27,589 nucleotides of DNA from positions 1 through 27,589 of the IMG/VR virus record IMGVR_UViG_3300032294_000831, one strand, 5' to 3'. The stretch is from a virus. A program made the translations under genes and the position numbers. Of the stretch, positions 1 through 27,588 are shown piece after piece (positions within the stretch are counted from its first letter, which is position 1; each line of letters begins with the position of its first letter). The notes beneath the pieces are model-generated. The model was not told where the DNA came from. It was given only the letters and a program-made list of their open reading frames with translations, and ran no database searches.

Positions 1-21
1 AAAAACAGAACGAGGCCGACA

Positions 22-516
22 TTGAAAGAAGTAATAATAACCGAACAAATGACGAATTGGGCTAAACTTGAGGCGCTGACGTTCTCGGCGCCCAATACGC
101 CGGTTCACGAGCTGGACCGTGAAAAGCGCGTTATGACCAATTTTATATGTAAAGCCGCCGTTCGGTATTCTATGCCCACGTGGTCATATAAAGGCCGCAA
201 TTTCTATACTGCCGCCAATAACTGGGTCTATGTTAAATCGTCTTTGTGCGGTCGCCCGCCAAACGACAATTACCATTTTTTCTGGGTCGAATCGGAATAC
301 CTAAGAGAAAAAAAGAGTGTTGATTACCTTATGTTTTCCTTCACTAATAACGACTTTTCCAAGGTCTGGCTGGCAGGTTATTTGTCTCTTGGCGAGTTCG
401 AACGCCGAGCAAAGCACATTCCGGCTAATACCATTTATGAGCGAGCCAATAAAAAGACCTACCAAAACCGCGTCGCCGTCCTCGAAATAAAAGTATCAGA
501 ATTAAATAAAATTTAA
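22..516 (+). CDS. Phage protein of unknown function, possibly PD-(D/E)XK-like
   Basis: 164 residues from a TTG start that has GAGG at 12-15, six bases upstream. The frame stays open to the left edge, so a start outside the window is possible; an internal ATG at 49 has no obvious ribosome site. No signal peptide or membrane helix is seen. The middle holds a hydrophobic strand after a Val-Asp pair (VDYLMFSF), then KVWLAGYLS and an EFERRAK helix, ending in a strand-like EIKVSEL. This layout resembles small phage proteins predicted to have a restriction-endonuclease-like fold, but I cannot point to a complete D...ExK site, so function is unassigned. It is followed by a fresh promoter, so it is probably not in the same unit as the next three genes. 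Confidence 0.7.
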   Translation: MKEVIITEQMTNWAKLEALTFSAPNTPVHELDREKRVMTNFICKAAVRYSMPTWSYKGRNFYTAANNWVYVKSSLCGRPPNDNYHFFWVESEYLREKKSVDYLMFSFTNNDFSKVWLAGYLSLGEFERRAKHIPANTIYERANKKTYQNRVAVLEIKVSELNKI

Positions 517-521
517 GTGTC

Positions 522-550
522 ATTTAATTGCTATAGTGTTGTGCTATAAT
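522..550 (+). promoter_or_regulatory. Extended -10 promoter
   Basis: A perfect TATAAT at 545-550 is preceded by TG plus one base (TGCTATAAT), the extended -10 form used by the housekeeping sigma factor. The -35 region about 17 bases upstream is weak (ATTTAA near 522-527), which extended -10 promoters tolerate. It lies after the stop of the first gene and 19 bases before the next start, so it would drive the three-gene plus-strand cassette to 2387. Confidence 0.6.
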
Positions 551-568
551 TAATCAGGGGGGTGGCTT

Positions 569-760
569 ATGCCTACTTGGTTAATTTATTTGCCTACGAT
601 TATTTCGACGGTGATCGAGCTCGTAAAGTTATGCCGCGAGCTAACTAAGGACGAAATAAAGGAAACAAAAGACGCATTAAAATCTATTCGCAAAAATGGC
701 GACGCTGATAGCATGAGACAACTTTGCGCCAAATTGGAGCACAACAAATGCGCAAATTAA
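569..760 (+). CDS. Small membrane peptide, possible holin
   Basis: 63 residues behind a strong ribosome site (AGGGGGG at 556-562). Residues 4-21 form one hydrophobic segment (WLIYLPTIISTVIELVKL); the rest is a charged, helical Lys/Glu/Asp-rich tail with two Cys near the end. One N-terminal membrane helix plus a charged cytoplasmic tail fits small phage holin-like proteins, but also any small membrane accessory protein; no holin family signature is certain. It is the first gene of the promoter-driven cassette, and its last 13 bases overlap the start of the next gene, so the two are probably translationally coupled. A second holin-like gene lies at 3472-3690 on the other strand. Confidence 0.6.
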   Translation: MPTWLIYLPTIISTVIELVKLCRELTKDEIKETKDALKSIRKNGDADSMRQLCAKLEHNKCAN

Positions 761-1515
761 TCTTGTTGTTTTTGTTAATGTCTTCGGTTTCTTTTGCAAA
801 TGAACCAACTACAAAGCTACCCCCCGAAACATATGAAATAGCAAAAAAATTCGGGGTTTATGACAAAATTGGTTTAAAACTGCTTAACAGAAAAAAAGCG
901 GCACAAATTGATATAGACAAGCACGCTCGGGCGAACGAGGCTATTTTGTCCGATATTAAAAGTGTTGAGGCTGGGCGCTTATTAGACGAGACTCTTGGCC
1001 GGATTGTCGACCGCGTAGTTGCTGTGTATGAGGCTCGTGGCGACCTGCAAACGGCGTCGCGTATTGAGGCCGAATATAGAATTAAGTTTTTAAACTTCTA
1101 TGAAAACGCTGCTATTAAAGAAATGGGCGACCATGAGTATTTAAGCGAATGGATCAAAACAATACACGATAAAATACACAATGAATTGGGCGACCAATTG
1201 TGTAAGTTTTTACATACGCATGATCTTTTTATAATAAATTTTGGGGTGCCAGTTATTAGGGCGCCCGAATCGTTTGACCTGCCAGAATATACGGACCACT
1301 TTGCTGGGCATATGGACGGGCCATATTATTTTATTCATCACGGCGTTGCAGGTGTTGTCACCTATTGGACTGTAAATGCGGTTTGTAGTGCCGGTACGGC
1401 GGGCATGGGCGCCGCTGTGTTTGCTTGTTCCCCTATTGCATCGCTCGCAGAATTTGCAATGGACAAACATTTAAGCCCAAAACTTGCGTTAAAAGTATGG
1501 ACGCGCTACCACTAA
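748..1515 (+). CDS. Secreted phage protein of unknown function
   Basis: 255 residues. I place the start at the ATG at 748, not the in-frame ATG at 724, because GGAG (735-738) sits at the right distance and it begins a textbook Sec signal peptide: MRK, a Leu/Phe-rich core, then SVSFA with likely cleavage before NEP. The mature part is first alpha-helical and charged (roughly residues 30-150), then becomes Gly/Ala-rich with Cys, HH and a hydrophobic stretch (residues 205-240, VAGVVTYW to FACSPIASL) that could insert in a membrane. I recognise no family. It ends 53 bases before the start of the secreted protease and is very likely co-transcribed with it, suggesting a shared periplasmic or extracellular job as partner, inhibitor or substrate; that is inference only. 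Confidence 0.7.
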   Translation: MRKLILLFLLMSSVSFANEPTTKLPPETYEIAKKFGVYDKIGLKLLNRKKAAQIDIDKHARANEAILSDIKSVEAGRLLDETLGRIVDRVVAVYEARGDLQTASRIEAEYRIKFLNFYENAAIKEMGDHEYLSEWIKTIHDKIHNELGDQLCKFLHTHDLFIINFGVPVIRAPESFDLPEYTDHFAGHMDGPYYFIHHGVAGVVTYWTVNAVCSAGTAGMGAAVFACSPIASLAEFAMDKHLSPKLALKVWTRYH

Positions 1516-1568
1516 AAAATTATCATATACCCCTCTTAATCCTATTTTTCATTTTTGTAGGGGGAATC

Positions 1569-2387
1569 ATGTTTCACTTAATTTTAGTCGTTCTTTTGTA
1601 TTGGCAAACTACTATTAGCGGCGCACTAGCCGACGAGGTTGCGCCACCCGTTGTTATGGTTGAAACGGTTAGCGGTTTAAAGGCGACCGGATACCGAGGT
1701 ATCTGGGACAAAAATAACGCACCCTATCGAACGATTGAAACGGGCTATAGAGAGTTACCAACATCATTTGATTACCGCACCGTTAGCGGCGTTTTAAACG
1801 ACGTACGGGACCAAGGAACCTGCGGTAGCTGTTGGAGTTTTAGCATTACAAGCGTTCTCGAAAGTTCTGTTGTCGTACAAACTACGCGCACGCTAACCGA
1901 CCTAAGCGAGCAACACATGGTAAGCTGTGATTATAAAAGCTACGGTTGCAACGGCGGGTTTATGGAAAGCGCCGATTTTGTTGTCCGCAACGGTTTGACA
2001 GACGAACAAGCGTTCCCATATACGGGACGACAAGTTCGTTGTAAACAGGGTTTAAAGACATTAGAAAAGGCTGCTAAATATTATTTGATTGGCGCTAAAA
2101 CTAGGACGCCAACTACTGCCGAAATTAAAACGGCTCTTGTTGAATATGGCCCGGTATTTGTTAGCGTCAAAGCTGGCGGAATGGGCTGGGCTGGAACAAC
2201 CCCAAAAGTTACTTCTTGTTCAAAACGAGGAACCTCTAACCACATGGTCGTTATTGTTGGCTATGACGAAAAGGGTTGGATTATCCGCAATAGCTGGGGT
2301 CCAACATGGGCAGACAAGGGTTACGCGCACATTGGTTACGGCTGCGACCTAATCGGCCAAGACGCTGGTTACGTTGTTGTTGACTAA
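1569..2387 (+). CDS. Secreted papain-family (C1A) cysteine protease
   Basis: 272 residues from the ATG at 1569, chosen because AGGGGGA (1560-1566) precedes it and it starts a signal peptide (MFHLILVVLLYW...ISGALA, cleavage near residue 21). Upstream in-frame ATGs at 1425 and 1497 overlap the previous gene and lack this context. The catalytic domain begins near residue 63 (LPTSFDYR, where mature papains start) and has all C1A hallmarks: oxyanion Gln82 and nucleophile Cys88 in QGTCGSCWSF, the GCNGG motif near 127-130, catalytic His225 in SNHMVVIVGYD and Asn241 in IIRNSWGPTWADKGYAHI. Only about 40 residues separate signal and catalytic domain, too short for the usual I29 inhibitory prodomain. 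Export plus an intact site suggests cleavage of envelope or extracellular proteins. C1A proteases are uncommon in phages; the target is unknown. Confidence 0.93.
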   Translation: MFHLILVVLLYWQTTISGALADEVAPPVVMVETVSGLKATGYRGIWDKNNAPYRTIETGYRELPTSFDYRTVSGVLNDVRDQGTCGSCWSFSITSVLESSVVVQTTRTLTDLSEQHMVSCDYKSYGCNGGFMESADFVVRNGLTDEQAFPYTGRQVRCKQGLKTLEKAAKYYLIGAKTRTPTTAEIKTALVEYGPVFVSVKAGGMGWAGTTPKVTSCSKRGTSNHMVVIVGYDEKGWIIRNSWGPTWADKGYAHIGYGCDLIGQDAGYVVVD

Positions 2388-2396
2388 TTGATTTTG

Positions 2397-2420
2397 TATG
2401 ATGATAATGGAATCATCATA
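2397..2420. repeat. Perfect 9-bp inverted repeat after the protease gene
   Basis: TATGATGAT and ATCATCATA flank a 6-base loop, starting nine bases after the protease stop codon. There is no T run behind it on the plus strand, so it is not a standard terminator by itself; it could protect the mRNA 3' end or bind a protein. Confidence 0.5.
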
Positions 2421-2443
2421 GAGATAGACTCCAAAGAAGTTTT

Positions 2444-2480
2444 AAAAAATGGCTTGGCAATTGCTGGGCCATTTTGTTAT
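2444..2480 (-). terminator. Terminator of the minus-strand unit (bidirectional)
   Basis: AAAATGGC (2446-2453) pairs with GCCATTTT (2468-2475); the loop contains the palindrome GCAATTGC. Read on the minus strand the stem is followed by six T residues (ATTTTTTAAA), giving a Rho-independent terminator downstream of the VRR-NUC gene. The plus-strand side also ends in TTTT. Confidence 0.6.
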
Positions 2481-2510
2481 AAATGTTACTGACAATATTT
2501 CATTTTTGCG

Positions 2511-2548
2511 TAAGGCCCTATTCAACGAATGGGGCTTTATATTTTTTT
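2511..2548 (+). terminator. Rho-independent terminator of the plus-strand cassette
   Basis: A 13-bp stem (2511-2523 with 2527-2539, two G-T wobbles, 3-base loop) is followed by TATATTTTTTTA. It terminates rightward transcription from the protease gene. Its right arm overlaps the stop codon of the convergent VRR-NUC gene, so the two units end across each other. Confidence 0.75.
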
Positions 2549-2866
2549 ACTCACGGCGTAAATAAATTTTAGCACATCCGTAGGCGTTCTGGCCACCTCG
2601 GCTATGCCGTTTGATTTTTTTATATTTTCAATCCACGCGGTTTGTTCGGGCCTTATTATCCCTTTAATGGTTTTTAATTCAAGCGCCCAGAATTGGCCGT
2701 CCGGCGTCAACCCTGCGAGGTCTGGGAATCCAGCTATAGGGCTTTTTCTAAAATGGGTTTTATTGTTCTTAGAATAAAGGGAAGGGCCGTTACTGACGCG
2801 CCACCATAAAAGCCCGCTGCGCTTTAGGTTGTCAGTTGCAAAACGTAATAGGTCCGCTTCCGTCAT
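2537..2866 (-). CDS. VRR-NUC domain nuclease
   Basis: 109 residues, the size of stand-alone phage VRR-NUC proteins, a branch of the PD-(D/E)XK nucleases. The core is visible: GFPDLAGL near residues 46-53, then FWALELKT near 59-66 (D49, E63 and K65 as the metal-binding D...ExK site), followed by RPEQTAWI and a last helix, the usual order for the family. Related proteins act in DNA repair, recombination or Holliday-junction-like cleavage; the role here is not shown. Its first 35 bases overlap the upstream LysR-type gene in another frame, which suggests coupled translation; only a weak AGGT precedes the ATG. Confidence 0.85.
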   Translation of the reverse strand: MTEADLLRFATDNLKRSGLLWWRVSNGPSLYSKNNKTHFRKSPIAGFPDLAGLTPDGQFWALELKTIKGIIRPEQTAWIENIKKSNGIAEVARTPTDVLKFIYAVSKKI

Positions 2867-3125
2867 GGTTTGGTAATGACCTGTCTAGCACTATCAGGGC
2901 TTCCCTAGCCGCTTTGGCTATTTCAGCGCCCTGAGCTGTTAATATTCGTTCTACGCCGCTTTTGGTTACAATCTCACAATCTAATAGGATTGTCATTTTT
3001 TTCATGCGCTGACTAATAGCGGCCTGTGACAAGTTTAAAAGCTTCGACGCTCCGGTCATGTTTAGACCCTCGGCCATTATGCCGAGAATAAAAAGGTCGT
3101 CGATATCAAGCCCGCGAAGTCGCAT
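2832..3125 (-). CDS. Stand-alone LysR-type winged-helix DNA-binding protein
   Basis: 97 residues with the N-terminal HTH of LysR-type regulators and nothing else: LFILGIMAEGLNMTGASKLLNLSQAAISQRMKKM is the expected helix-turn-helix at about residues 11-44, then the wing (EIVTKSGVERILTAQG) and the start of the linker helix (AAREALIVLDRSL). Normal LysR regulators have about 300 residues with a periplasmic-binding-like effector domain; this domain is absent, so it would bind DNA without an obvious ligand input. AGAGG lies seven bases upstream of the ATG. It is encoded just after a hairpin/terminator and overlaps the nuclease gene. It may regulate a phage promoter or the host; the target is unknown. 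Confidence 0.85.
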   Translation of the reverse strand: MRLRGLDIDDLFILGIMAEGLNMTGASKLLNLSQAAISQRMKKMTILLDCEIVTKSGVERILTAQGAEIAKAAREALIVLDRSLPNHDGSGPITFCN

Positions 3126-3138
3126 GGTACGCCTCTAT

Positions 3139-3166
3139 GACAAAAGCGGGGCCAGTTTCGGCCCCG
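3139..3166 (-). terminator. Hairpin terminator between late genes and the LysR-type gene
   Basis: On the minus strand CGGGGCC and GGCCCCG form a 7-bp all-GC stem around a 6-base loop (3147-3166), followed by CTTTTGTC. It lies between the end of the long structural unit and the ribosome site of the LysR-type gene, so it may end or attenuate transcription. The palindrome CGGCGCGCCG (about 3171-3180) is immediately upstream. Confidence 0.55.
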
Positions 3167-3194
3167 TAACGGCGCGCCGAACGCTGACCCGTTA

Positions 3195-3200
3195 ATTATA
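3195..3200 (-). promoter_or_regulatory. Possible -10 box for the LysR-type/VRR-NUC pair
   Basis: A perfect TATAAT is read on the minus strand just after the stop of the 86-residue gene. No convincing -35 is seen at 16-18 bases, so this is a weak candidate. If used, its transcript would pass through the GC hairpin before the LysR-type gene. Confidence 0.25.
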
Positions 3201-3461
3201 TTATGATAGTTTTTCCATCAGCTTTAAAGCTAATTCAAGCCCAAGCCCTGCAAGTTCTTTTAATTCTTGGTCGTCTGCCGAAGCTAATTCGTCTTTAACT
3301 TGACTTACGCCCTCAAGTCCGGGCTTCAGTGCGCTGATTAAGGCGGGAACGTGTCGAACGTCAATTAGTGTAACCTTGCCGTCTTCAAGGACCTTATCAA
3401 TTACGTCCATCGACTTTATAAGGCTTTCAAGTAGTTCTCGGCTTTCTTTTACGCCCGACAT
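3201..3461 (-). CDS. Small helical phage protein of unknown function
   Basis: 86 residues, strong ribosome site (AAGGGGG) before the ATG. It is almost all alpha-helical and acidic: a leading helix, then VLEDGKVTLIDVRHVPALISALKPGLEG, then a second helical half ending in LALKLMEKL. The short DGKVTLIDV turn followed by a Pro-containing hydrophobic helix resembles small conserved proteins I associate with phage late regions near lysis or fibre genes, but no function is established and I name none. No membrane segment or signal peptide. It follows the holin-like gene by ten bases and is the last gene before the minus-strand hairpin. Confidence 0.75.
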   Translation of the reverse strand: MSGVKESRELLESLIKSMDVIDKVLEDGKVTLIDVRHVPALISALKPGLEGVSQVKDELASADDQELKELAGLGLELALKLMEKLS

Positions 3462-3471
3462 AAAACCCCCT

Positions 3472-3690
3472 TTATTTTTTTCGTTCTACAATTCGTAATC
3501 GCACTTCGTGGTCGTCAAGCTTGTCATCAAGATATTCGGATTTTAATTTTAATTCTTGTTGCATTAGCTTAATGTTTACAGCAACGTCGTTTAAATTCTT
3601 TGACATACTTCGGACAAAATTAGCAACTAGGCCCAACATCGTCACGATTGCTGGGATACCTAGTGCCGAAATTATTTCCTTTAGTTCCAT
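3472..3690 (-). CDS. Holin-like membrane peptide
   Basis: 72 residues: a single N-terminal hydrophobic helix (residues 8-26, ALGIPAIVTMLGLVANFV) followed by a long charged amphipathic helix (roughly 30-70) with heptad-like Leu/Val spacing, ending in ERKK. This layout is that of small single-helix phage holins or XhlA-like lysis accessory proteins, and a lysis gene is expected just after the tail fibres. No endolysin is encoded beside it, so the lysis role is unproven. The ATG lies three bases after the fibre stop codon and has no strong ribosome site, suggesting reinitiation from the fibre gene. Confidence 0.65.
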   Translation of the reverse strand: MELKEIISALGIPAIVTMLGLVANFVRSMSKNLNDVAVNIKLMQQELKLKSEYLDDKLDDHEVRLRIVERKK

Positions 3691-3693
3691 AAA

Positions 3694-6600
3694 TTAAGCG
3701 GGTCCAAATAGTGTTATTTGCAACTCTCTTGTGGAAAATGCCGTCCAAAACGTTAAAAGCGAATCAGTTAAGGTTGCCAAATTTCCGGGCGCCGTATTTG
3801 TATTTAATCGAGCAAATCCGATTCCATATGGTTGGCCCAAATCGTCGGTAATTGTTATTGGGTCTAGCGGGTCCTCTATAAAAACAATGGCAAAAGGACC
3901 ACTATCGCCCACCAATGTCGGCGGCAAATCTACTTCAAATTCGTTCCAAACATTTAAACCGCTTGCAAACATACTAACAGGCATTGAAACCGTTTCGGCT
4001 AAAACAACATTATCGGGACGATCACCTGCGCCTTGAATTTGAATTTTAAAACTTCCCGTAGCTGTAGTGTTAACCGCACAAATAAATTTTACTTTACTAA
4101 TTATTTTTGGCTCCAATAGCTCAACACATTGCGCCACACCATAAGCGGGTGTCGCTTGACCGCTACTAGAAATTCTATTAAAAAGACCATTATAACTTGT
4201 TAGTGTGTTGTAAACCTCTTGAAGCGGCGGCGGCGGCGCCGGTTGTTCATCAACATAAAACTCCGTCCAAGATGATTCGGCTAATGCACTATAAACCTTT
4301 ATTCTAAATAGTCTGTTTATTTCTCCGTGAGGCGGCCTTGGCAATCCTTGAACAAGCGAAGGCGAAATGCCTAATGGCCCTATTTCATACGATTGAAACT
4401 CGTTCGCAATGGATTGCTGTATTTCATAGTTTTGCGCGTCGCCTGACCATGAAAACTCAATCCTTGCCTGTGTATCGTTTTGGTTTAAAACAGTAAAAGA
4501 ATTTATTACAGGTGGTGCAACATATTGGGCCACTTCAAACTCAAAAGGAATCGAGCTTCCCCAAGCGTTTGATAGAGTTACCCTAAAGGTTGCCGCAAAT
4601 GGCAATCTATCTATTTGAACCGCATAAGTGGGGCCATAAAATACAGTGCCCGCGCTTTGTTGAATCCACATTCCCATACTGTAGTATTCACAGACATAAT
4701 TTGTGGCATCGTTTTCGAAACTTACCATAGCGTTTGCTGGGGTCGTATTTCCGGATTCCATTGATACGTTTGTAATTACTGGGACCGCGCCCGATGGATA
4801 TGGCTCAATTAAAAACTGATACCATTCCGAAGCTAGCATATTGTTATATAATTGAATTCTGGCTTCAACTTGTTGCGCTTGTCTGCTAATGCTTATGATC
4901 GCAGGGTTTTGCAAATCACCGAATTGAGTTGTTTGTGTCACCCATTCATCAACAACAAAGTGTTGAATAACATAAGCATTTGCCGTACCAGTGTAAGACA
5001 CCGTCAAATTACATGGCGTAGCAACTCCGGGGTCAACTACGGCGCTTTGAATAACTGGGGCCGCTTCCGATGGAACCTTGTCTATGTGAAACTCTTGCTC
5101 GCTACATCCTGCGCCATTGCAAAGCTGTATTTTAAACTGATTATAAGGATTATCAAATGTAGGTCTGGAAACACTTGAAAACAATATTGGAGAACCGCCA
5201 GGCAATAAAGACGTAACATAATCCCAATTTAAAGTGTCAGAATTCCAAATTAATAACGAACAATCTAAAGCCGAACCTGAATAATCAACGGTTACATCAG
5301 CTAAAGTATCGCTAGTTAAACTTGAAAAAACGCTATTTATTGTTGGTGCTGTTGTTCCGCCCACTGGCAACACTACAAACATATATTTTTCTGGACCATA
5401 ATAATTCCACAATTCTACCATTTTAGGCTGTGGGTCTGAACCTTCTGGCGGTCTTGTAAAACTAATTTCTATTGGGCTGCTTCCTAAATGTTCGTTGTCT
5501 GAGTCCTGCATAAAGCCGCCCATAGACATGCTGTACACTACATAACGTGTTACAACATTGTTATAAGCAAACGACACCGTAATATTTTCGCTTGGATCAT
5601 CCAATCCTGTAACGCTTGTTATTGTTGCGCGAGCTGTCGGCAGTCCTAAAGATTCTTTTAGAGCCAATAGGTCTAGCGAAACGTCTTGTGTTAATGCGTC
5701 GTATAAAATTGGGCTAGTGGCTGATACTACGCCGCTAGGACCTGCGGGACCAACTTCGCCCTGTGGTCCCTGCAATCCCTGTTCTCCCTGAATTCCTTGC
5801 GGACCGGGTTCACCGGTATCACCTTTAGGACCTTGAATTCCTTGCTCGCCTTGTGGACCCTGTAATCCCATTTCGCCCTGAGGTCCCGGCGCACCTTGCT
5901 CGCCTTGAATTCCTTGGACGCCCTGAGGACCGATAGGGCCGGGCTCGCCTTGCGGTCCAGCGGGACCGGCGGGACCTTGAATGCCAACCGCACCCGATAG
6001 GTTTACCGACCAACTAGCAAATGTTCCGCTGCCTTGGTGGCTTGTCTTTTCAAAAATCAATTCGCCCGTCGCACCATCGTAATCGACGACATCGCCATAT
6101 TGTACATGGTCAATATCGTGCGCGACGATAATTGTCTGACCAATGGAATAATCAAGATTCAGGTCGGCAGTGATGATTGTTTCAATGCCGTTGTTAGCCA
6201 GCGTGAAACTGGAAGTTGATGTCGTAGCGTAACGGTCTCCGTCCATTCCCGCCGCACCTGTATCACCTTTTTCGCCCTGTGGACCTTGCAATCCTTGAAC
6301 GCCTTGAGGACCGGGTTCGCCCATGTCGCCCTTTTCGCCGGCAATTCCTTGCGGTCCTTGGGGTCCTTGCAATCCTTGTTCGCCTTGAGGACCCGGCACG
6401 CCTTGCTCGCCTTGAATTCCTTGAATTCCTTGGGGGCCAGTGTCGCCGGTTGCGCCTGTGTCGCCCTTTAAACCTTGAGGGCCTTGCGCGCCTGTAGCTC
6501 CTGTCAATCCTTGCGGGCCTTGTGGACCGGCTGGGCCGGCTGGGCCGACTGGACCGGACGCCCATGTCAAATCGCCTCGAAGAAATTGACTGGTCGTTCC

Positions 6601-8790
6601 AGTGCCGAGGCTTGCTTGTTTTGTGTCTAGCTGGCTTTTGTTTACCGCGTCGCCGCTGTCCGTTCCGTTTGCTAGGTTTATAATTTTAGTCGACGCAAGA
6701 TCGACAACGCGCGCTTTAAGTAAAATTTTACCTTGTACGCCTGTTCCTGTTGTTGCAATACATTCTAGCTCTATATTTCCACCGCTTGCATTGTTAGCAA
6801 GTCCGGCACCGTCTGGACTAATGTAAATAGCTTTACCGGCTGGCGACGCTCCGTAACTTGATTCGTAAGTCGTAATATACATATCGGTGCCGGTTGTTGC
6901 GTGTACATACGCAAAATTCCAGAACCATTGTTTACCCCAATCGCCCATGTTGTGGCTGTTGGTTGCGCCCGGTACTATAGCAGTGTTGACGGCTGTTGAC
7001 GCCAAATTGCTGAGGGCTGTGTTTGCTCCGCTGCTTTGTGGGTTAATTTTTACAAGATTTCCGCCGTTTTGAATTGTAGCGCCCGCCGCCGGCAAGCTGC
7101 TATCTGTTACGTCGGCGTATGTACTAGCGCCGTTAATTGTTAAGGCGTTCATCCAGAAGTTTCTAGCAAACAATGAACAACGGCGGTTAAAGTCTGTTAC
7201 CGTTGTTGTCAAAGTAACTGTATTTTGACAGAATCCGCCGGCGGCGTTAATTATAGTAGCCATTCCGCCGTTAGGGTGTTGCGTCATCGTAATAGTGCCG
7301 TAGTTTACGTTATTAGTGTAAACTCCGACGTTAATTCCGCTGACTGTCATGGCGCCAAATACTAGACACGAATCAAATTGGGCTTGGGCTATTGCATTGT
7401 TGTAGCCGTAAAGGTTTACAGTTGAGCTAAAAGAAACTTCATAAAAATAAAGTTTTCCGGCTGCCGAAGTTACTGTATTCCAGTTAAAATCGCACGCGCT
7501 GATAATTGCACATTGACTAAATCCCGAGCGGTTATCTACGCCGGAATTTCCTGAAAATGTTGCATCTAGCAAAATTGTAGTTGAGTTAGTGATCCTTACG
7601 CTGTCTCGACTTGCTCCGACGACAAAAACGTTTGGTTTTAATGTTAAAGCCGTTTCGCTATAAGCGCCTGCCGCGACGCTGATTACATAGCGTTTTGTAG
7701 GGCTTGCGTCAGTAATGCTAGTCATCGCCGCTTTAATTGTAGCGAATGGTTTTGACAAAGACCCGTCGCCCGTAACATCGTCGCCGCCTTTTGTAACGTA
7801 ACGAGTTTGAGCCACGACAACACTTGATAGCTTACTGTTAAATGTTGACCAATCCGCACTACTTAAATAGCCATTGCTTGACGCGCTGGCTTGTGTAATT
7901 GAAACGGTTTGGGTTAATGGCTCGTATTGAATTGGTGCGGTAGCGGCAACAACTCCGGAAGGACCGGCGGGGCCAGTTTCACCTTGAGGACCTTGTGGTC
8001 CGATTTCGCCCTGTAAACCCTGTGGTCCCTGCGGTCCAATTTCTCCCTGAATTCCTTGCTCACCCTGCGGACCAACGGGACCAACTTCCCCCTGAATTCC
8101 TTGCGGTCCTTGTGGTCCAATTTCGCCTTGTAATCCCTGTGGGCCTTGTGGTCCAATTTCGCCTTGTAATCCCTGTGGGCCTTGTGGACCAACTTCTCCC
8201 TGTGGGCCTTGAGGTCCAATTTCACCCTGTGGACCTGCGGGTCCCATAGGTCCAACTTCGCCTTGAGGTCCAGCCGGACCAACGGCGCCTTGTTCACCTT
8301 GAGGGCCTTGTGGGCCAACGGGACCAACTTCTCCCTGTGGCCCCATGGGTCCAGCGGGTCCAACAATTTGCCCAACATCGTCCCAAACTAATCCAGTCCA
8401 AACGTAAAGGTCGCCATCATCGTCGACAATATATGCGTCACCTTGTTGGTTTCCTTCCATAGGCAAAGCGGCTTCGGTGGGTACGCTTCCCTTTAGTTGA
8501 ATGCCAACACCCGGGGCGCCTTGCTCGCCTTGAGGTCCTTGCGGTCCGGCGGGACCTGTTTCACCCGTTGCACCGGCGGGACCAATTTCTCCCTGTGGGC
8601 CTTGAGGACCAGTAGGACCTGCGGGGCCTTGAACACCACTATAAGGTAAATCATTCCACGCCAAAACACCGTCACCAATTTTTGCTTGGTTTGTGTCCAG
8701 CTCTAAACCCATTTCGCCTTGTGCTAAAACTGGGTTGACCGATTGCCACTCAGCGGCAAGACCGCGACGAAATTGAATTACCGTAGCCAT
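3694..8790 (-). CDS. Giant multidomain collagen-like tail fibre with Mtd-type N-terminus
   Basis: 1698 residues, preceded by GGGGGAG. Residues 1-50 ([11 protein letters not shown]...[20 protein letters not shown]) match the major-tropism-determinant N-terminal domain that anchors fibres to the baseplate. Then: collagen Gly-X-Y (about 53-93), an inserted module [11 protein letters not shown]...[15 protein letters not shown] (about 93-143), collagen (about 145-280), a parallel beta-helix-like region (about 330-600; [20 protein letters not shown] is a typical pectin-lyase-like start), a FLRGDLTW motif, collagen (about 743-845), a small globular domain (about 855-930), collagen (about 935-1018), five Ig/FN3-like repeats of about 88 residues (about 1050-1515) and a beta-rich tip (about 1520-1698). 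Probably a trimeric receptor-binding or adhesion fibre; the tip ligand is unknown. Antisense ORFs here are shadows of the repeats. Confidence 0.9.
8111..8182 (-). repeat. 36-bp perfect tandem duplication in collagen region
   Basis: A 36-base unit beginning TGTGGTCCAATTTCGCC occurs twice without a mismatch (8111-8146, 8147-8182), equal to 12 collagen residues (four Gly-X-Y triplets). Most other collagen triplets use varied codons, so this looks like a recent slippage expansion. Confidence 0.8.
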
Positions 8791-11265
8791 TTAAATTACT
8801 CCCCCACCATTTATATTTGTGATTCCACCATACACTGACGACGGCGCACCACCGTCTAAATTACCAACACTAGGCAATGCCCATTCTAAATCACCGCGCA
8901 AAAACTTGTCACTTGGACCCGGTGTTATTGAAATGTTTTTAGTTAAAGCATCATAAGCCAATGGCGCTGTTGCCGACACTACGCCGCTAGGGCCTTCGGG
9001 ACCAATAGGTCCTTGAGGTCCAATCGGACCTTGTTCACCGGTATCGCCTTTTTCGCCCTGAATACCTTGAGGACCTTGTTCACCCTGCGGGCCCTGAGGG
9101 CCAACGTCGCCCGTATCACCTTTTTCACCTTGCGGACCTTGAGGACCTTCGGGACCAATAGGACCTTGTTCGCCTGTGTCACCTTTTGGCCCTTGAATGC
9201 CTTGAGGACCTTGGGGACCAATTTCACCTTGAAGACCTGCGGGGCCTTGTAACCCTTGGGGACCCTCTGGGCCTTGGGGACCAGTCGCTCCGGTTGCTCC
9301 GGTTTCACCTTGGGGGCCAGTCGCTCCGGTATCACCCTTGTCACCCTTGTCACCCTTTTCGCCCTGTGGACCCATAGGTCCAACTTCGCCCTGCAATCCC
9401 TGTATTCCGGGAACGCCCTGTGGGCCTTCGGGGCCCTGCGGGCCAGTAGCACCGGTGGCGCCTGTTTCGCCCTGTGGGCCAGTGTCGCCAGTGTCTCCCT
9501 TATCACCTTTAAGTCCCTGAGGACCTTGTGGTCCCATAGGGCCAATTTCGCCCTGTGGGCCCTGTACTCCGGGAACACCTTGTTCACCCTGTGGTCCTTG
9601 AGGGCCAGTGGCACCCGTTGCCCCAGTTTCGCCTTGTGGACCGGTATCTCCAGTATCACCTTTATCGCCCTTAGGACCTTGAGGTCCGGCGGGGCCAATG
9701 TCACCTTGGTCACCCTTTTCGCCTTGAATTCCTTGAATGCCTTGAGGACCTGCGGGACCCGCTTCACCCTGAGGCCCAGCGGGACCAATGTCGCCTTGAT
9801 CGCCTTTAAGACCTTGAATTCCTTGGTCGCCTTGAATGCCTTGAATGCCTTGAGGGCCAATAGGTCCAACGTCGCCGGTGTCACCTTTTTCGCCTTTTTC
9901 CCCTTGGATTCCTTGCGGACCCTGAGGTCCAACAATTTGACCAACATTATCCCAAGACGTGCCGACCCATACATATAAATCGCCATTTTCGTCGACAATA
10001 TATGCGTCGCCCAAAACGTTGCCAGTTAAAGGCAAATCTAATTCTGTAGGCACGCTGCCTTGAAGTTGAATTCCAACGCCTTGCTCGCCTTGTGGTCCTT
10101 GAGGTCCTTGTGGGCCGGTTGCACCTGTTTCCCCAGTATCACCTTTGTCGCCCTTAGGTCCTTGAATTCCTTGAATTCCTTGGGGTCCCTCTAAACCTTG
10201 TAAACCCTGCGGTCCCTGCAATCCTTCGGGTCCTTGCGGGCCCGTGGCACCTGTGTCGCCTTTTTCACCCTGCGGACCTTGAGCTCCGGTGTCACCTTTT
10301 TCGCCCTGCAATCCTTGAGGACCCATCGGGCCAATATCTCCAGTGTCACCTTTTGGCCCGGTAGCTCCAGTGTCACCTTTTTCACCTTGTAAACCTTGTG
10401 GGCCAACGGGACCAACGGGGCCAATAGGTCCTTGATCTCCAGTATCACCCTTTAAGCCTTGAACGCCCTGAATTCCCTGCGGCCCCTGCGGACCCATTTC
10501 TCCGGTGTCACCCTTGTCGCCTTTTTCTCCGGTTGCGCCTGTGTCGCCCTTTAATCCTTGCGGACCCTGTGGTCCGGTGGCGCCGGTGGCGCCAATTGGC
10601 CCCTGATCTCCGGTATCGCCTTTTAATCCCTGAACGCCTTGAATTCCCTGAGGTCCTTGAGGACCCATAGGGCCAGTATCACCGGTATCACCCTTAGCGC
10701 CGGTGGCGCCTGTGTCGCCCTGTAAACCCTGTGGTCCTTGAGGTCCAACCGCACCCGTTGCACCAATCGGGCCTTGGTCGCCTGTGTCACCCTTGTCGCC
10801 CTTTAATCCCGTAGCACCAATGGGACCTTGGGGACCAATAGGTCCTTGGCTTCCGGTATCGCCTTTTAATCCCTGAATTCCTTGGGGACCTTGCGGTCCT
10901 GTTGCGCCCGCCGGACCGGTTGCTCCGGTGGCTCCGACTGGGCCTTGAATTCCTTGTGGTCCCTGTGGACCTGCGGGCCCTTGCGGCCCTACTATTTTTC
11001 CTACGTTGTCCCAATCTGTACTCGTCCAAACATAAAGGTCGCCGTCAGAATCAACTATATAAGCATCGCCCTGAACGTTGCCGGTAATTGGTAAATCAGC
11101 AACCGTCGGAACACTTCCCTTTAGCTGTACGCCGACGCCCGGTTCACCTTGTGGACCTTCGGGACCAATAGGTCCTTGGGCGCCTGCGGGACCTGCGGGT
11201 CCAGTCGCTCCGGTATCACCCTTTGGGCCTTGTATTCCTGTACCAATAAATAAATCTATAGCCAT
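8791..11265 (-). CDS. Collagen-like tail fibre protein, almost entirely Gly-X-Y
   Basis: 824 residues, AGAGGT ribosome site. Only eight residues (MAIDLFIG) precede collagen. Collagen blocks run about 9-45, 95-393 and 443-757, rich in GPQGPQG, GEKGDTG and GATGPQG, the charged triplets that stabilise bacterial collagens lacking hydroxyproline. Two copies of an inserted globular module (VPT..DLP..GN..GDAYIVD..GDLYVW) lie at about 46-93 and 393-443; a third copy is in the next gene. The C-terminus has [12 protein letters not shown] and the Gly-rich end [20 protein letters not shown], a kind of ending seen in other phage structural proteins. About 650 collagen residues at 0.29 nm each would give a rod near 190 nm if fully triple-helical (inference). 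It lacks its own recognised anchor domain; the neighbouring 122-residue protein may supply one. Confidence 0.88.
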
Positions 11266-26836: not shown

Positions 26837-27091
26837 TTACATTAACCCCAATCGGCTAAGTTTTTGTTTTAGTTCTTCCGCTTTTTCTGGGTGTTCTTTT
26901 AAAACTTGCTTATGAACGATTGCGGCATATTTTTTTAACGTCGACTCGTCTTTTTCTTTTAGAACGTCTGCCGCCATAGAGGTAAATCCCAACGATTTTA
27001 AAAGGGCCGATAGCGCATCTTGAACGCCGGCATTATCCGCCCGCCACTGACTCGAGTATTTGTTCTTTGTTAAGTCTAACATCGTTGCCAT
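26837..27091 (-). CDS. Small tagged head-region protein 3
   Basis: 84 residues from ATG at 27091 (MATMLDL) or 76-81 from the internal ATG at 27082 that matches its paralogues. Residues 4-18 carry the tag MLDLTKNKYSSQWRA, nearly identical to the tag of the gene at 27588. The rest is a helical body: VQDALSALLKSLGFTSMAADVLKEKDESTLKKYAAIVHKQVLKEHPEKAEELKQKL. No known family. It lies just upstream of the protease/scaffold gene in the head operon. Confidence 0.75.
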   Translation of the reverse strand: MATMLDLTKNKYSSQWRADNAGVQDALSALLKSLGFTSMAADVLKEKDESTLKKYAAIVHKQVLKEHPEKAEELKQKLSRLGLM

Positions 27092-27094
27092 TTG

Positions 27095-27292
27095 TTACCT
27101 CGGTGTGCTGTCTACTACTTGTTTAAACCTAGCCATAGCGTCGCCGCTTGTCTCGCCAAAAAATTGACCGACCTTTGAGCGTATACGCCACTGTAAACCC
27201 ATGTGCTGCAATTCATATTCTACGCCACGATATTGCCCGCGTCCATTGGTGCGGAAATTGGAGCTATAACGGTTGTGGGTTAGGTCGAGCAT
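27095..27292 (-). CDS. Small tagged head-region protein 2
   Basis: 65 residues. Start overlaps the previous stop as TAATG. It begins with a diverged copy of the same tag, MLDLTHNRYSSNFRTN, then a different short body: RGQYRGVEYELQHMGLQWRIRSKVGQFFGETSGDAMARFKQVVDSTPR. The body is basic and may fold into a small alpha/beta unit. No known family. Its position between the other two tagged genes argues for a shared role in head assembly or ejected cargo, as inference. Confidence 0.72.
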   Translation of the reverse strand: MLDLTHNRYSSNFRTNGRGQYRGVEYELQHMGLQWRIRSKVGQFFGETSGDAMARFKQVVDSTPR

Positions 27293-27588
27293 TATTTATA
27301 AACCGCCTGATATTCCCTGCGAGCTTTTTCTAATTCTTCTTTTACTTGACGAATTGCTGCGGAATCGCCTTTTGATTTTACTGCTTTTAATTTTTGTTCT
27401 AAATCATCGACTTTCTTTGCAAGCTTGTCTAAATCATATTTTTTAGGCTGTTCTTTAAATCGGTCTTTAACTTTTTTCAGTTGGTCGTCTTCTAAGTCTA
27501 TTACCTCTTTAGGGTGCGGTTGAATTTCAACACGAGCGTTATCCGCTCGCCACTGACTTGAATACCTGTTCTTAGTTAGGTCTAGCAT
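27292..27588 (-). CDS. Small tagged head-region protein 1
   Basis: 98 residues starting one base from the right edge, so the ribosome site is outside the window. The tag MLDLTKNRYSSQWRADNAR is followed by an acidic/basic coiled-coil body: VIDLEDDQLKKVKDRFKEQPKKYDLDKLAKKVDDLEQKLKAVKSKGDSAAIRQVKEELEKARREYQAVY. The body has clear heptads (residues 50-95). No known family. First of three adjacent tagged genes. The start is supported by the alignment of the tag with its two paralogues. Confidence 0.75.
   Translation of the reverse strand: MLDLTKNRYSSQWRADNARVEIQPHPKEVIDLEDDQLKKVKDRFKEQPKKYDLDKLAKKVDDLEQKLKAVKSKGDSAAIRQVKEELEKARREYQAVYK

Follow-up and report, generated by a model that had tools for sequence, protein, structure and literature searches.

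Why does a phage carry a papain-like protease with a predicted export signal in a small gene cassette of its own? The question is raised by the left end of a linear viral fragment of 27,589 bases, which is the entire IMG/VR record IMGVR_UViG_3300032294_000831 and is called the window below. Three plus-strand genes, P1, P2 and C1A, converge there on the minus-strand late operon, whose genes run from the right end down to position 2537 (Table 1). Related phage contigs are referred to by handles such as G001 and L020.

Layout of the cassette and its neighbours

The first-pass annotation described a promoter-driven, terminator-closed cassette opposite in strand to the late operon. All three plus-strand ORFs were confirmed, each preceded by a purine-rich ribosome binding site, and the opposite orientation is evident from the ORF map. 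The strong terminator is a real structure as well (−17.3 kcal/mol, z −4.3), yet it starts 122 nt past the C1A stop and lies beyond the span of 545–2387 that had been given for the cassette. An extended −10 motif is present as claimed, but its frequency is unremarkable, the window having 3 occurrences where about 1.2 would be expected (not significant), and a comparison of upstream regions showed that it is not kept in front of most related cassettes. The promoter is therefore only plausible.

Table 1. Cassette features and neighbouring genes at the left end of the 27,589-nt window.
Feature	Position	Strand	Remarks
Edge-open ORF	1–516		upstream of the cassette; 0 matches in Pfam/PHROGs-type profile searches
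Putative extended −10 motif	542–550	+	TGCTATAAT
P1	569–760	+	63-aa ORF; one predicted N-terminal TM helix
P2	748–1515	+	255 aa; ATG at 748; overlaps P1 by 13 nt
C1A protease	1569–2387	+	272 aa
Intrinsic terminator	2510–2540	+	14-bp stem, U-tract
VRR-NUC domain protein	2537–2866	−	Pfam VRR_NUC, 3.1e-7; end of the convergent operon
Stand-alone LysR-type HTH protein	2832–3125	−	Pfam HTH_1, 4.4e-7
86-aa family protein	3201–3461	−	recurrent near phage C1A (cluster 3, 8 loci)
72-aa protein	3472–3690	−	N-terminal TM and coiled coil; cluster 20, 4 loci

Several of the small genes recur in relatives. A P1 profile made from the window, L022, L023 and L049 found a relative at the corresponding position of L020 (1.6e-20), with weak matches in G001 (5e-4) and L021 (0.03). 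The profile of the 86-aa family was found in further contigs with C1A or P2, and that of the 72-aa protein also matches G001. A single TM segment is predicted in P1 and likewise in the 72-aa protein; no match to holin families was obtained for either, and the latter is holin-like by position only. The stand-alone LysR-type protein is a possible regulator. A similar small HTH protein is located between P2 and C1A in L021 (about 5638–5930, plus strand).

Some features further along the fragment were also recorded. Two very long collagen-like (Gly-X-Y) proteins of tail-fibre type (1698 and 824 aa) occupy 3694–11265 on the minus strand and have relatives in G002 and G008. Downstream of its tail fibre, G002, which is related to the window phage, encodes two neighbouring proteins with RCC1-like repeats and many WG and CCNY motifs (1748–4020, minus strand). 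At 26837–27588 of the window, again on the minus strand, three consecutive short ORFs, otherwise different, have near-copies of MLDLTKNRYSSQWRADN as their N-terminal motif.

Among 50,697 phage records, the best match of the major capsid protein is that of Bdellovibrio phage phi1422 (43.5% identity over 95%, E 1e-80), with the next matches at about 25% identity. In total, 19 morphogenesis genes of the window match phi1422 in the same order. These sequences place the window phage among the dwarf myoviruses of the phiPLPE-like type, with phi1422 as its closest relative. phi1422 itself was described as a lytic phiPLPE-like dwarf myovirus, of a group that infects diverse Proteobacteria (PMC3391216). 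The capsid match together with the collinear genes tips the balance slightly towards a Bdellovibrio-like host for the window phage as well. In contrast to the shared morphogenesis genes, neither C1A nor P2 was found by profile search in phi1422, the closest cultured relative.

The same cassette genes occur elsewhere. Phage G001 has C1A, a small TM gene, the 86-aa and 72-aa families and P2 in common with the window, whereas its terminase is closest to those of Acidobacteria and Thermus phages; the cassette therefore spans structurally different phages. Terminases of other C1A phages match Thermus, Halorubrum and Acidobacteria phages at 25–33% identity or give no useful match.

A papain-family protease from a phage clade

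The C1A product matches Pfam Peptidase_C1 (PF00112) with an E value of 3.4e-46 over profile positions 1–205 of 220. A PDB sequence search gave 174 matches with ficin and cathepsin K as the best, and identities to papain-family chains amount to about 26–32%. The AF2 model (mean pLDDT 93.9) retrieved 293 PDB structures at E ≤ 0.001, the papain family on top, with target-normalised TM values of about 0.83–0.90 to mature papain-family chains. Gln82, Cys88, His225 and Asn241 are invariant across 19 aligned phage relatives. By sequence and predicted fold the protein is thus a member of the papain family with the full catalytic set, a new member of an already known family. Its N-terminus reads as a hydrophobic leader ending near ALA with a plausible SPase I site, and we infer export by a signal peptide.

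The I29 prodomain, a common but not defining feature of the C1A papain family, found no match in the Pfam search of the protein. The HMM search and the 19-sequence alignment thereby agree with the earlier description of a signal-peptide C1A protease that has an intact active site and no I29. In its place, a propeptide of about 40 residues stands between leader and mature domain. It carries a TG[YLFVM] motif, seen in 36 of 42 members of the phage clade but in 6 of 62 relatives from cells and absent from all 7 other phage C1A proteins; in the phage clade a median of 85 residues, leader included, precedes CGSCW. In comparison to MEROPS C1A and PF00112, the window protein shares the whole catalytic domain, the Gln/Cys/His/Asn set and the predicted papain fold; it differs by the missing I29, the short propeptide and its place in a phage-encoded clade. 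A protease for virion maturation or virion-borne entry would agree with the use of proteases in phage head maturation and with the vicinity of tail fibre genes, but the leader, the propeptide and a variable gene position that is not among the head genes render this role very improbable.

In PHROGs the only good match is phrog_16701 (4.9e-12), a weaker hit than that of Pfam, annotated as 'peptidase' with no link to P2 or lysis. A literature search on phage C1A or papain yielded nothing relevant. The distribution was then followed with a pair alignment of the window and G001 proteases (52% identity) as query. The scan of 2.9 million viral contigs of IMG/VR revealed 56 loci, one being G001 itself, and a cellular scan gave 80 loci with at most about 38% identity, one short match excepted. 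A quick ML tree places 42 of the 50 phage sequences in a single set of 46 (SH-aLRT 99), whose remaining four members are cellular and sit on a long branch. The statement that C1A proteases are unusual in phages is true of the described ones, of whose 50,697 records 22 match at E 0.01; IMG/VR, however, contains a clade of considerable size. The C1A proteins of Lak megaphages and of Thermoanaerobacterium phage THSA-485A are likewise phage-borne; they share only 23–30% identity with the window protein, and no P2 was detected for them in the phage collection.

That the cassette occupies the left end of the linear window could suggest a contaminating island of host genes. This origin is ruled out by the well-supported phage clade and by the location of the same genes inside other phage contigs, namely G001 (at 31 of 50 kb), L020, L021 and L022.

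P2, the partner of the protease

P2 begins with a hydrophobic leader, MRKLILLFLLMSSVSFA, with a plausible SPase I site on reading of the sequence, and we infer that it is exported by a signal peptide. Its family members are predicted to be exported too, with a lipobox-like leader in L025 and L042. The alignment contains the conserved blocks GD(H/Y/F)xPLSEW, NFAIPVVF and HF, and two invariant cysteines, Cys213 and Cys227, stand on either side of a turn within the hydrophobic C-terminal part. Searches of Pfam, NCBIfam, PHROGs and PDB gave 0 matches at a usable E value, in line with the first-pass annotation, which had assigned P2 to no known family. BFVD contains one relative (38% identity), to which no function is assigned there. 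Three members used as queries found no match in the phage collection.

The AF2 model of P2 is all-alpha and of moderate confidence (pLDDT 74). Foldseek retrieved nothing from PDB at E ≤ 0.001, and the best VIA-align result (Z 7.7, 3dby) falls short of what is meaningful for helical bundles. In host genomes (48 with cellular C1A, 284 and 398 of two phyla) 0 P2 genes were found, a count that lacks a positive control and is uninformative.

Clustering of all genes within 3.5 kb of C1A identified relatives of P2 as the commonest neighbour (14 of 56 loci). Depending on the relative, P2 sits upstream or downstream of C1A, and in L022, L041, L043 and L045 the two genes overlap by 4 nt, in either order. 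When P2 alone served as query, 8 additional contigs came up, and 4 of these contain a Pfam-confirmed C1A within about 4 kb that had escaped the protease scan. Larger distances occur as well: P2 and C1A are about 19 kb apart in G001 and far apart in the large phages G748 and G768 (104 and 152 kb). Overall, after near-identical contigs were merged by eye, about 23 lineages bear P2, and about 18 of them have C1A on the same contig, usually adjacent; the five P2 contigs without C1A are 10–35 kb long and may be fragments.

Conserved linkage of the cassette genes in other phages, proposed as a check on the first annotation, is thus found for the P2–C1A pair. On the sequence evidence P2 appears as a new, undescribed family and a conserved partner of C1A. 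The dependence is one-sided: most C1A phages outside the subclade of the window have no P2 recognised by profile search, so C1A does not need P2, while P2 is seldom found without C1A. For the view of the cassette as self-contained and separately controlled this means that the conserved pair stands, whereas P1 and other small genes are present in some relatives and absent from others, the order of P2 and C1A varies or the two lie far apart, and the promoter is only putative.

Lysis-gene context and possible function

In the relatives, C1A repeatedly adjoins endolysin genes of different families. Amidase_2 lies directly upstream in L044, L047, L050, L054, L055, L056 and L060 and is convergent with C1A in G001. 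M15_3 overlaps or is near C1A in L025, L036, L166 and L167, VanY is beside it in L020 and GH108 in L064, and GH24 directly follows C1A and a small TM gene in L024. Peptidoglycan hydrolase families account for approximately 15 of 145 genes near C1A versus 2 of 140 control genes from the same contigs at more than 3.2 kb from C1A (Fisher p 0.002), where both counts are approximate, the control value is at least 2 as counted among the families listed, and the seven amidase cases belong to one subclade. At several C1A loci no recognised peptidoglycan hydrolase is nearby. In the 27.6-kb window itself no endolysin was recognised by Pfam and further gene searches, so its connection to lysis rests on the relatives.

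Further candidate hydrolases are found in the same surroundings. Trypsin-like genes stand next to the C1A–P2 pair in L049 (4936–5790) and L064 (3699–4622, with leader). Six contigs (L047 at 7175–7975, L050, L054, L055, L056 and L060) encode a leader-bearing HExxH protein just downstream of C1A. These exported proteins have a conserved EGxADYYA motif; as their match to Pfam Peptidase_M48 is at best marginal, a metalloprotease role is our reading of the sequence. SNase-family genes belong to the near set and follow the HExxH gene in several contigs. Thioredoxin/redoxin-like genes near C1A in L040 (7427–7897), L058, L062 and L164 (11788–12501) possibly serve folding or reduction of the cysteine protease.

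Of the four functions named in the first annotation (lysis, superinfection exclusion, defence and alteration of the host surface), lysis is favoured by the endolysin adjacency in relatives, and the other three stand beside it as alternatives. The pair is kept together and is often found beside cell-wall-cutting genes, and it therefore probably aids breakage of the envelope late in infection. We accordingly lean towards the cassette being an accessory lysis or exit module of secreted envelope hydrolases, with somewhat better than even confidence. Counted against this assignment are the convergent orientation to the late operon, the absence of C1A and P2 from phi1422 and a predicted P2 structure that points to no function.

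An exported C1A and P2 could instead benefit the infected or lysogenic host, in the manner of a moron or lysogenic conversion, for example by digestion of nutrients or prey or in surface competition. The strand opposite to the late operon, the own putative promoter and terminator, an ORF in G001 that reads as a tyrosine-recombinase-like integrase and the SNase, HExxH and trypsin-like neighbours, which resemble a set of digestive enzymes, are compatible with such a benefit. The repeated adjacency to different endolysin families, with some very short or overlapping junctions, the reported lytic nature of phi1422 and the lack of a close cellular C1A copy (best about 38% identity) argue against it, and we consider it unlikely, at about one chance in five. 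Less probable still is a function in superinfection exclusion or receptor shaving, in which the protease would strip receptors from the surface and thereby prevent the adsorption of other phages or the trapping of progeny on debris. Export, separate regulation signals and the lipobox-like leader of some relatives, which would anchor the protein in the envelope, would suit this function, but it has no known receptor and does not predict the endolysin linkage.

In the favoured lysis module, the protease would be synthesised in zymogen form, with a mini-propeptide, and would become active in the periplasm or outside the cell. There it could cut outer-membrane, peptidoglycan-linked or surface-layer proteins of the envelope and, in the case of a predatory host that grows within its prey, also the bdelloplast layer. 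Meanwhile the phage endolysin would cut peptidoglycan, and the virions would escape. For P2, which has a lipobox in some relatives, the most probable place of action is at the outer membrane next to the protease, where it would serve as a tether, an activator or a disruptor of the membrane; of all steps this one is the least certain.

Lysis by phages of Gram-negative bacteria is described as the work of holin, endolysin and spanin, and to our knowledge proteolysis has been described as minor in it. C1A genes of relatives are found within cassettes of this kind, next to endolysins and small TM genes, and their loci differ by the addition of one or more exported proteases and P2. We regard the C1A–P2 pairing as new and as a variation on the known phage lysis module. 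A survey of viral lytic proteins published in 2025 (PMC12596118) is silent on papain-like proteases, and a search of the literature on lysis by Bdellovibrio phages found nothing. A more far-reaching and tentative idea, to which we give less credence than to the accessory module, is an unrecognised exit system of Gram-negative phages. In it, C1A and the dedicated P2, both exported and in some phages accompanied by trypsin-like or HExxH proteins and a nuclease, would dismantle envelope protein, or the bdelloplast in phages of predators.

A conserved exported protease with a new partner, located by unrelated endolysins in phages of unrelated structural type, would add proteolysis to the means of envelope disruption. 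If the host is Bdellovibrio-like, how a phage leaves a host that itself lives inside another cell becomes a testable question.
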